A program made the translations under genes and the position numbers. 64,000 nucleotides of DNA, taken from NCBI GenBank assembly GCA_963930775.1, contig OZ005695.1, positions 1,178,001 to 1,242,000 of the forward strand, given 5' to 3'. Positions within the stretch are counted from its first letter, which is position 1. Every line of letters begins with the position of its first letter. The notes under the pieces are model-generated. The model was not told where the DNA came from and did not search any database. It saw only the letters and a program-made list of their open reading frames with translations. The DNA comes from Cliona cf. orientalis. Taxonomy: Eukaryota; Porifera; Demospongiae; Clionaida; Clionaidae. This document shows, piece by piece, positions 58,738 to 62,926 of this stretch.

Positions 58738-59313
58738 GGATATTGATATGGTCAGTGTCTAGCTCTAACCTCGAACCAAGGCTCACCTATGTCTGGTCAC
58801 GTAGCTAGCTAGCTAGCTCTAGCTCTAGCTCTAGCAATCTTGCATGTGCACACGTGCGCAATGTCCCTTTTCGCGCATGCTCGAGCTCAGATGCGGACGC
58901 TAACACGTGAAAAACCTGTCAGACCAGTTTCAACCAGCAGGTAATAGCTGGTTGGCTTAGCAAGAGTAGGCAGGAATCGCGCCATTCCAGGCAGCTAAAA
59001 TTAGTCACTGCAGGTCCTTGCGCCATTCAAATCCACCTTCTTTAAAAGCTGTTCATCGATCGGGAGATCGTGCCGTGCTGAAAGACCACTTCGGAAAAGC
59101 CGTAAAGATGTATATTCATGTAATTTCAACTGGTGTATTCGTAAAGAAGTACTCCTTCGGTTGAAGGTGGCTAATAGGAACTTGTCGAGCCGAACTTCTC
59201 GCTCGCCTTTAAGTAGCTTAATTATTTATAGTAGTTATACCTTCTCTACCCCGCCGGCTGATTCAAGATGGACTGCTAAACTGAACCAACTTTCCTCCGC
59301 GCCGAAGCTGGAG
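58738..59313. promoter_or_regulatory. Divergent intergenic region, BTB copy D / SLC25A38
   Basis: 576 bp between diverging starts. It includes an AGCTAGCTAGCTAGCTCTAG tandem stretch at about 58804-58836. No clear TATA box was seen. Confidence 0.5.
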
Positions 59314-62300
59314 ATGTCGTCGCCCGCCCGTCCCCTTCCCTCGTCCATCGCTCGCGAGTCCGTCTCGCAAACACCATCCAGCGCACCAAGCCGTACCATC
59401 GCTTGCGCTTCAAGTATCGACAACAACGGCAGCAGCTCTGCCAAGAACCACCACCAAACCGGACCAACTTCTACCGTTGCCGCCGCCAAACAACTCGGAA
59501 AGACGACCCTAATTGCCTTCACGGCTGGGGCCGTGAGTGCGTCGTGCACAACCATCTGCTTCCAACCTCTGGACCTGGTCAAGACCAGAATGCAAGCACG
59601 CGCTCTATTCCCAGCGCCAGTCGGAGCAGGCTCATCCGTATGCCTGTAAGTTTAATCTTTAATGTGTGTACTTCTACTTAGGTAAATTGAATTATTACCG
59701 TATCCGATCTAATTAACGCGCCACTAAAAAATAATTACCGATCTTGGGTGGCGCCTAATTAGAGCCCGGAAATTAATGCTCAGGTCCAGGTGGCGCATCT
59801 TTTAGAGAGGCGCGTTGTAATTAGAGCGAAATCGAAGTGTTGAAAAAAATGGCTTCTAGCACCATGGAGTTCGAGTCAACTGTTCGTGGTTATCATGTCT
59901 ATAAGAGAACGTGGACACCTGTTGTTGGTGAGAGCTTGACAGCTGCAAGAGAATTTGGTAATATCCACGACATGACTGCAGTAGCCTTGTTTCGAGGAGG
60001 CGTGAAAGTTGGTCACATTCCTATGAAAATATCTCGACTTTGTAGCTCCTTCATAACAAGAGGTGGTACAATTGAAGCGGTGATCACAGGATCCAGACAA
60101 TTTGCAGCAGATCTACCTCAAGGAGGGCTAGACATCCCATGTAAATATATTTTTTCTGGAGGAAAGAGGCTTGTGCGAAGGCTGGAACGTAGACTTAAGG
60201 TGCATGTACTTGCTGCCTAACTTTCACAGTTGCTATCTTTACATTTTACGAATCATGATCACCATTTGTGAATTGTTTTTAAATATTTCATCCATTGTAA
60301 AAATTTTAATGTTAAAAAGCATGAATCAGCAGTGGATAAAATTAAAATAAAAAAGCATGAATCAGCTGTGGATAAAAATGAAATTATGAATAGTGCAAAA
60401 AAAAATTAAAAGCATAAATCCCATATGAACCGTACATGTACATGTAGACCCTTGGAGCAAGCATGTCACTGGTCAGTTGCTATCACAATCTTCCACTTCA
60501 CTGCTCGTATCTGAATCATTCTCAGAATCAGAAGATGCTAAAGGATCGGAGTCGGTACTCAGTGTTGCATCACCAAAAATCTCTGCCATCATGTCGTCAA
60601 TTTCAGCCCGTAGATCATCATTGCGGATCAATGTCTCTTCCCATGTCCCTAGAGCATTGCTGATTCCAGTAACGTAAAATGATTTGACGATAGCAGGACA
60701 CCTGCATGAGAAGTCACGCCAAGCATCTGCAATCCAGTCAACCAATGTCTGGCGGGAAGGAGGAGGAATCTTACTAAATTGCCGTGGATCATCACTCTTT
60801 TCTCTGGCAGCCTCAAGCTCTTCTGTCTTGTCAAACATGTACTGCTGCCAGTGCCGACGCAGAATACTCTTAAATGGTTTGTTCAGGGAAACATCCAATG
60901 GCTGTAAGATCGATGTACACCCACCAGGAATGACCACTGTGTGAACCTTTTCGCGCCTGAACTCTGCTGCTACAGCTTCAGTGGTGTGAGCACTAAAAGA
61001 ATCCAAGCAGAGAATTGACTCGCTTTCTGTCTGTTTCTCATCGCAGATCTTCTTCACATGCTTCGCCCAGATTTCCTTGATCCACCTCTTCATCAAATCT
61101 TCATCCATCCAGGCCTTTGGTTGATTTGCAATTATGAATCCATCTGGGGCCTTCAAATTGCGAGTGGTGCGATCTGTTTTTCCTACAAAAGGACATTACA
61201 GTAGCTATTGTAGTTACTTCAAGTAATCGTGGTTGCTAATAGTCATACCTTTGAAAATGATCATTGGAGGTAAAAAGTCTCCCATTGCAGTACACCCAAG
61301 CACCACTGTGATGTGCCTCTTTTCCGAGCCAGTTGTTCGAACCTTCACTGTCTTCACCCCTTTACATTCGATTGTTTTACCTGGCACAATATCAAAATAA
61401 ACTGGGGTCTCATCCATGTTTCCAAGGAATCTACACAGTTTATGATTTAAAGTGAATACCATATACAACAAAGCAATAGACACTTACAGGTGAGCTATGT
61501 CTGTCGACCTCCTTAGATCATACACCTTCTTGTGAAATGACTCTATCTTTTCCTCCAGATCTCGGGGAAGCTTCTGGGCCAAGGATGTTTTTGCTCTCAG
61601 AACAAGAGTGTGTCGACGGAAGAACTTCTGTGCCCACCCATCCGATGCTTTGAAATTGGGACTTACTGGGGTGATAATCTGCTTTGCACGTAACTTCAAC
61701 ATCTCTTTTGTTACAGCCAACTGTAAATCACGCTTCTCCAGCACCCACTGCAACAGCTTCTCATCTAGCTCCACAGGATAGCTCAGCTTACGTCCTTGTC
61801 CCTTGTTGTTTTTTCGCTTCTTCCTTCCCTTCATTGCGTCCAGGTTCTCCTTCAGCCAACGTCCAATATTTCGACGGTGCACACCAAAATGACGTGCTGC
61901 TGCCCTTGTCCCATGGTGGCGTGCATACTCTGCAACTTTCTTTTTCTGGTGAGCACTATACATCCGGTGAACTGAGTGTCGTGCTGATGGACTACCCTGA
62001 GAATCTCCTATAATAAATGCATACACATCATAATAGAATTGTCTTGATTGAACCTAGCTAGCTACACTGTATTACATACTCACTACTGAGCACAAAATAT
62101 ATTATAGAGCCAAGTAACTCGGCAGGCCCAACGATACTGCCTATTTTCTTACCATCATCTCCCCCCAAAGGTGAGCACAATGGTACCTCATCATCATCAT
62201 GATCAAGGGGCCGCTTTCTTGGCCGACCAACGGGCCTTTTGGAAGGCTTCCTAAGAGGAGGTAGCCTAGAAGATAGTGGCTGTGTAGGAGGGCTTGCAGG

Positions 62301-62926
62301 TCCTGGCTTGAAGAATTCGGTAATTTTCCTGCTCGCCATTGTCGCGGCTGCAAAATCACACGTCCACAAATTACACTGGTACCGCTCTAATTAGAACGCG
62401 CCTGAAAAAAATAATTAGCATGGCCACATGGCGCTTAAATAGAGCCCGAAAATTAGGATTCAAGCGTAGGTGGCGCGTTCATTAGAGAGGCGCCTTAATT
62501 AGATCGGATACGGTAGCTCTAAGTAGGTAACTGCCTTTGTGGCACAATTTTGTGGTGGGAGATGTTATCATATCTAGTGGTCTTGTCTTATCGTCAAACA
62601 CATGTTCTCGCAGGTCTGCTGGCATGTTCTCCACATTCAACACTGTTGTGCAGAGGGAGAACTTTATCGCTCTGTGGAAAGGCACCTCACCTGTAAGTCT
62701 CTCATTATCTGTTACTCTAGCATGCTCACAGAATGTGCTAATTTTGTGAAATATTAGAGCCTTGCCTGATAATCGTTTGTGTGTTATTCACATGAAACAT
62801 GGTGCAAAATTTTGAAGTTGTTAGAGCCTCAGGGAATTGTTTGTATTTTCCGTTTGTTGTCATGAGTTACCGTATTTTGCTAGGGGTGTCGATTTTTCTT
62901 TCTTATGTAACGCTTGTTAACTCGTC

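Follow-up and report, generated by a model that had tools for sequence, protein, structure and literature searches.

The DNA examined here, a 64-kb stretch of the genome of the sponge Cliona cf. orientalis (hereafter the window), contains a transposon that is identified from its sequence as a member of the pogo superfamily by a Passer-type set of domains, a TA target site and inverted ends. This first-seen copy is one member of a diverse, recently active lineage of two-gene pogo elements in the sponge. The second gene encodes a HIRAN protein and is a standing part of the element, being both kept and inherited together with the transposase. We hold the identity of the element and the co-inheritance of the two genes to be practically certain. 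In its two-gene form, the element encodes a DDD transposase and a HIRAN protein in two usually convergent genes, each starting near one end.

The element in the window and its two genes

The initial annotation had described perfect 19-bp ends at a TA target site, and these are indeed found: the terminal 19 bp are exact, the inverted repeats extend over 30 nt with 93% identity, and a TA stands at each outer end (Table 1). Within the 64 kb, the 19-bp end has only two matches at up to three mismatches, with a chance expectation of 0. The element interrupts an intron of a mitochondrial-carrier gene (flanks 59161-59649 and 62537-62749), two successive parts of the carrier profile being matched by the flanks, positions 5-36 (E 1.5e-6) by one and 42-77 (E 0.001) by the other. 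The two genes start 151 bp inward of the left end (HIRAN, plus strand) and 174 bp inward of the right end (transposase, minus strand), and are therefore convergent inside one element, as had been claimed.

Table 1. Coordinates of the window element, its parts and the related loci mentioned in the text (positions without a prefix are those of the window)
Feature	Position	Strand	Remarks
Complete pogo (Passer-like) transposon	59698..62513	.	2816 bp; from ends, TA and domains
TA target-site duplication, left	59696..59697	.	from sequence
TA target-site duplication, right	62514..62515	.	from sequence
Left terminal inverted repeat	59698..59716	+	exact 19 bp, part of a longer imperfect repeat
Right terminal inverted repeat	62495..62513	-	exact 19 bp
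Subterminal repeat, left copy	59749..59816	+	direct repeat, 76% identical to 62429-62496
Subterminal repeat, right copy	62429..62496	+	partner of 59749..59816
Stand-alone HIRAN gene	59849..60220	+	123 aa; ATG 59849, stop 60220, open; adjoins left end, points inward
Transposase exon 1	62084..62339	-	predicted splicing; starts MASRKITEFF; alternative donor gives end at 62153
Transposase exon 2	61488..62007	-	BrkDBD and HTH_Tnp_Tc5 DNA-binding domains
Transposase exon 3	61249..61430	-	DDE domain begins here, with its first D (GNMDETP); DDE_1 match weak (E 0.05)
Transposase exon 4	60473..61182	-	DDE_1, second and third D (D-35-D), acidic tail
PIP-box-like motif RKITEFF	62310..62330	-	transposase N-terminus; from sequence
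DDE_1 lineage with Ulp1-like frame	C14:2584150-2586040, C2:8096007-8097897, C10:1743196-1745083		
Long Ulp1-like frames, examples	C1:34306980-34307555, C1:20917230-20917817		

The open, spliced DDD transposase of the initial annotation can be read as four predicted exons from 62339 to 60473 on the minus strand, coding for 555 or 532 amino acids, the donor of intron 1 being ambiguous; the splice sites are predicted from sequence, not from RNA. The exon-4 frame matches PF03184 (DDE_1) with E 7.5e-23, the DNA-binding domains match PF03221 (HTH_Tnp_Tc5) with E 1e-12 and PF09607 (BrkDBD) with E 5.8e-8, and 35 residues separate the second D from the third. The motif RKITEFF at the N-terminus of the protein resembles a PIP box.

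The HIRAN frame scores just below the Pfam cut-off for PF08797 (23.8 against 24.7 bits, E 3.9e-5), and at least 97 places in the genome match this profile above the cut-off among the best 150 of 186 candidates. When a profile of the window protein and 20 relatives is compared with the PDB, five HLTF HIRAN sequences rank first (E 0.0012-0.0019), and the predicted fold of the window protein (pLDDT 87.8) matches the HLTF HIRAN domain along its whole length, so that the HIRAN-like identity proposed initially holds also at the level of structure prediction. A comparison of three proteins with NCBIfam gave no match.

The HIRAN domain of HLTF is described as binding the 3' ends of single-stranded DNA (PMC4666394, PMC11237066), with Y72 and Y93 stacking on the DNA (PMC4666394). 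In the alignment of the transposon HIRAN family, the pocket residues N91, D94 and H110 of HLTF are kept and N90, Y72 and Y93 are not. The Y72 position is mostly I or V, the Y93 position is H in 65 of 143 sequences, the R71 position is R in only 19 of 139, and the Y73 position is W in 137 of 139. The three kept residues, N, D and H, may belong to the HIRAN fold in general. The family also shares a conserved segment, DLPQGGL(D/E)(I/V)PC.

Copies, ends and co-inheritance of the two genes

The genome searched comprises 216.8 Mb in 149 contigs; the assembly odCliOrie1.1 is given as 217.17 Mb in 307 scaffolds (PMC12639293), and the difference is probably due to short scaffolds missing from the searched sequence. 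With the window HIRAN as query, at least 150 matches are obtained (the best 150 of 363 candidates), and with the transposase exon at least 87. After merging, 53 of the 83 transposase-exon loci have HIRAN within 5 kb, compared with 0.57 at random. Wider profile searches place HIRAN within 4 kb of 60 of 174 DDE_1 loci (rotation mean 1.3, maximum 15); the other 114 may belong mainly to other pogo clades. The 60 pairs are convergent in 42 cases, divergent in 12 and on the same strand in 6, and pairs are present on all 19 chromosomes. Control transposase families are found near HIRAN at only 2 of 117 loci (Harbinger; 117 of 143 rows, neighbouring fragments of one locus being dropped) and 3 of 150 loci (Tc1-type). 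All genome counts are lower bounds, because the searches score only the best candidates: the best 150 of 210 for the DDE_1 profile, 119 of 638 (121 matches) for the protease profile, and the best 150 of 161 and of 548 in two further searches. The pairing count took in the HIRAN-bearing protease rows and some protease-only rows (59 of 121), so that protease counts are partial.

The ends place the paired genes within elements. The motif TACCGTA occurs 153-332 bp upstream of HIRAN in 25 of the 37 matches examined, the reversed control motif in one. Both ends enclose HIRAN and DDE in 13 of 36 HIRAN regions, representing about 11 distinct lineages, many of the 36 stretches being too short to contain both ends. 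Twelve of these 13 copies were re-checked and all have TA on both sides; the thirteenth, on C19, also has TA on both sides and differs at 4 of 24 end bases. The 3.1-kb copies on C4, C18 and C8 have ends identical at 24 of 24 bases, and those on C4 and C18 share 99.84% identity, which points to recent transposition. In the C8 copy there is a gap of 10 bp, and the HIRAN-protease frame is interrupted.

Copies with only one of the two genes also occur. Among eight regions that seemed to contain a transposase alone, four have weak HIRAN or HIRAN-C48 remnants and four have none; the element at C9:3224164-3226235, with matching ends and no detectable HIRAN, speaks against a universal rule. Conversely, L091, an element of about 600 bp, has its two ends and codes for roughly the first 70 residues of HIRAN. 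Of 13 HIRAN-only loci in the 26.9 Mb of chromosome 1 that were listed, 6 have an exact CCGTATAGC end no more than 600 bp away (random rate 0.0043), compared with 0 of 8 HIRAN-plus-DDE loci there. At least L091 and these six therefore look like internal-deletion copies, and for them the first impression that HIRAN-only loci are a different, non-pogo type of element was dropped. At C1:24758563-24759554, next to a HIRAN fragment, CCGTATAGC ends recur at a spacing of 80-81 bp, each inverted relative to the one before, and the end of L091 is a similar nested palindrome.

The window end itself (59698-59716 as probe) has 546 matches in the genome (control 10) and the CCGTATAGC end 2304 (control 0), of which about 100 and 100 places, respectively, were listed. 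Among 30 window-end places examined, 22 have a paired end; they correspond to 19 elements, three short ones having been counted from either end. Fifteen of the 19 measure 216-229 bp, and 14 are flanked by TA on each side. The abundance of paired elements of about 223 bp shows that the window family has many short copies, presumably non-autonomous.

The initial annotation had named two outcomes that would speak against a two-gene element, namely that other copies consistently lack the HIRAN frame or that HIRAN is mainly a host gene. Neither is found. The two genes co-occur in further copies, as the 53 of 83 loci demonstrate, and the 25 HIRAN matches with TA and CCGTA upstream, together with the deletion-like loci, place HIRAN inside elements. 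HIRAN does occur in host-type genes, HLTF and Rad5, which is what might favor an accidental capture of a host HIRAN by the window copy alone, without any role. Such a capture is refuted by dozens of copies on all 19 chromosomes, by co-inheritance, by purifying selection and by the family controls, and we consider it next to impossible; a captured host gene is likewise rejected on the copies, the pairing, the TACCGTA ends and the controls.

HIRAN and DDE distances between elements are correlated, with r of 0.82 for 28 elements and 0.69 for 21 non-redundant ones, and none of 5000 permutations is as high. This comparison covers the 28 of 44 regions in which both matches are long enough, one region with two elements being left out. 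In that region, at C2:6953883, the HIRAN is very close to that at C4:4853528 and the assigned DDE match is far apart.

The midpoint-rooted transposase tree of the 28 elements consists of two clades with full support. In the clade of the window (clade A), 11 of 11 elements have HIRAN without protease; in the other (clade B, 17 elements), 6 have HIRAN alone and 11 have HIRAN with a protease, the fusion being restricted to this clade. Accordingly, HIRAN either predates the split or was acquired on two occasions. The tree contains only elements of one genome, all chosen for having HIRAN, and for this reason speaks only to HIRAN-bearing elements and says nothing on how often HIRAN is absent.

Between lineages, a strong synonymous excess in HIRAN is observed for 9 of 17 pairs chosen by hand (p < 1e-8, simple count test); for eight of the nine no omega can be given because synonymous sites are saturated. 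Copies of one family give omega values between 0.10 and 1.28 (1.17 for the window and C13 copies), which suggests that single copies partly decay after insertion.

The fused Ulp1-like protease and relatives elsewhere

In the 3.1-kb group, the second gene codes for about 300-340 amino acids, composed of HIRAN, a linker and an Ulp1-type domain. The C4 fusion matches PF02902 with 24.1 bits (cut-off 20.7), and the C6 fusion has no match at E 0.1. Among 40 HIRAN-C48 relatives, PF02902 is recognized in 20 and PF08797 in 36 at E <= 0.001; H251, Q301 and C307 are invariant and D269 is conserved in over 90%, and we take these four residues to be the catalytic H-D-Q-C set of C48 proteases. In the PDB, the protease profile finds a ULP-protease protein (E 3e-4), SENP1, SENP2 and SENP5 (E 6e-4 to 0.002) and, weakly, yeast Ulp1 (E 0.06).

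The protein searches give 269 HIRAN-C48 relatives; another sponge, Halichondria panicea, is the one species named among the 120 listed. Among the matches listed, HIRAN-C48 and transposase hits come from contigs of equal length (3054, 3294, 64303 and 540595 bp), which suggests that the pair travels together elsewhere. P0003, which comes from a different record, joins a close HIRAN to the antisense of the transposase exon (73% over 70 aa), as would be expected if part of such a two-gene element had been deleted internally. Scanning viral contigs twice yielded no relative, and a viral origin was rejected on this ground.

Ulp1-like frames are also observed in other settings (Table 1). In a different DDE_1 lineage, with a frame of about 620 aa, a 369-aa Ulp1-like frame lies on the same strand at less than 1 kb, with no HIRAN match near; this may represent a second pogo-like type equipped with a protease gene. 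In addition, mostly on C1, there are dozens of long frames (up to about 1150 aa) with an Ulp1-like domain about 31-38% identical to that of the HIRAN fusion; they probably represent another mobile element family.

Possible role of HIRAN and relation to known systems

Cut-and-paste transposition by a DDD transposase exposes 3'-OH ends at the element, and the outcome of the event presumably depends on host repair. To our knowledge, few DNA transposons bring a repair-domain protein of their own. HLTF is reported to find 3' ends via its HIRAN domain and to remove Cas9 from cut DNA, and the isolated domain (residues 1-180) is reported to be dominant-negative, inhibiting both Cas9 removal and end resection (PMC11237066). 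The fused Ulp1-like domain would fit an earlier proposal in which repair factors are the targets of transposon Ulp1 and OTU domains (PMC2836005). By analogy, the HIRAN protein would grip the 3' ends set free by the transposase in the element or in the target. The gripped ends would then be shielded from host remodellers of the HLTF/Rad5 type, which strip protein from breaks, or be handed to repair, and SUMO or ubiquitin-like marks would be cleaved off there by the fused protease.

As a whole, a two-gene pogo lineage in which HIRAN acts in transposition is the best explanation of the data, and we give it about an even chance. The handling of 3' ends by the transposon HIRAN is consistent with the fold and the kept pocket residues, and is weakened because the DNA-stacking Y72 and Y93 are not kept; it is a tentative reading, somewhat less probable than not. 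The predicted structure would suggest that the sponge elements bring their own DNA-end-handling protein. More specifically, the lineage could encode a decoy of HLTF, in which HIRAN holds 3' ends and protects the transposase-DNA complex, and one clade additionally brings a deSUMOylase or deubiquitylase to the break; in this full form the proposal is rather doubtful.

We have also considered that HIRAN and a PCNA-binding transposase steer jumps to replication forks or daughter strands and so raise the copy number in S phase, HIRAN recognizing nascent 3' ends as it does when HLTF reverses a fork. The hint of such a link comes from the transposase N-terminus: the window protein starts MASRKITEFF, and among 79 full-length relatives of the C4 transposase (clade B), 48 have a hydrophobic-x-x-aromatic-aromatic core, compared with 1.9 in shuffles and 10 of 1333 other windows. 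The Pogo transposase of Drosophila reportedly binds PCNA. The motif is weak, however: the usual PIP consensus has a glutamine, which is mostly lacking here, the core is missing from the first 25 amino acids in 31 of the 79 relatives, and open-licence PMC papers yielded nothing on pogo transposases and PCNA. We regard this reading as unlikely.

Alternatively, HIRAN could be a subunit of the transpososome, a DNA-binding helper that loads the transposase and recognizes ends or subterminal repeats of its own element, in the manner of the MYB-like second protein of Harbinger elements. The location of both genes inside the same ends, the correlated divergence expected if proteins and ends co-evolve, and the subterminal repeats at each end of the window copy would fit; yet the predicted fold is that of HIRAN, which in HLTF is described as binding 3' ends of single-stranded DNA, and the transposase already has two DNA-binding domains, making this quite improbable. 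A role away from transposition, in which the protein counteracts host defence by blocking HLTF/Rad5 or SUMO-based silencing, would have its clearest form in the fusion with a protease carrying the complete H-D-Q-C set, and Ulp1 and OTU protease domains are described in DNA transposons such as Ginger1 and Mutator (PMC2836005). Since clade A, including the window copy, has HIRAN without protease in all 11 elements examined, and the target is only putative, we regard this role as distinctly improbable.

Should the HLTF decoy be correct, a stand-alone HIRAN would be a transposon-made switch of repair choice. The lineage offers a natural two-gene system with young, near-identical copies and diverged versions with and without the fused protease, and the reported inhibition of HLTF at Cas9-cut ends by the isolated domain (PMC11237066) is a precedent that makes the steering of end processing by a transposon testable in cell lines. 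Pogo elements are, moreover, described as the source of the host genes POGZ, POGK and CENPB (PMC7386202).

The initial annotation knew of no described pogo family with a HIRAN gene, and we found none either: a HIRAN gene inside a transposon is not reported in the titles and abstract openings listed for open-licence PMC papers, and the word HIRAN does not appear in the available text of the pogo surveys PMC7325037 and PMC7386202. The element sequences may already be catalogued, for instance in Repbase.

Among known systems, Harbinger elements carry a MYB-like second gene and resemble the sponge pogo elements in having two genes, one for an accessory DNA-binding protein (putative in pogo), whereas both the transposases and the accessory proteins are unrelated. 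Stand-alone HIRAN proteins such as lp_0118 of Lactobacillus plantarum (3k2y) are not known to us from any transposon; the window HIRAN lies inside one. In HLTF/Rad5, HIRAN is joined to a SWI/SNF motor and a RING domain, whereas the transposon HIRAN is stand-alone or fused to a protease, does not conserve Y72, Y93 and R71, has W in place of Y73, and is marked by the DLPQGGL(D/E)(I/V)PC segment as a feature of the transposon family.

The fusion clade shares an Ulp1-type cysteine protease with the DNA transposons Ginger1 and Mutator, as these are described in PMC2836005; in Ginger1 the protease forms the C-terminus of the transposase, whereas in the sponge pogo it is encoded by a separate gene, behind HIRAN. 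Closest is the Passer family, characterized in PMC7386202 by BrkDBD and HTH_Tnp_Tc5, DDE_1, DD35D, TA and inverted ends: the window element has the same domain set, the same DD35D and TA, and its 2.8 kb are within the described range. The family as described there has one or two ORFs for the transposase, to which the present lineage adds a HIRAN gene, either alone or fused to C48.
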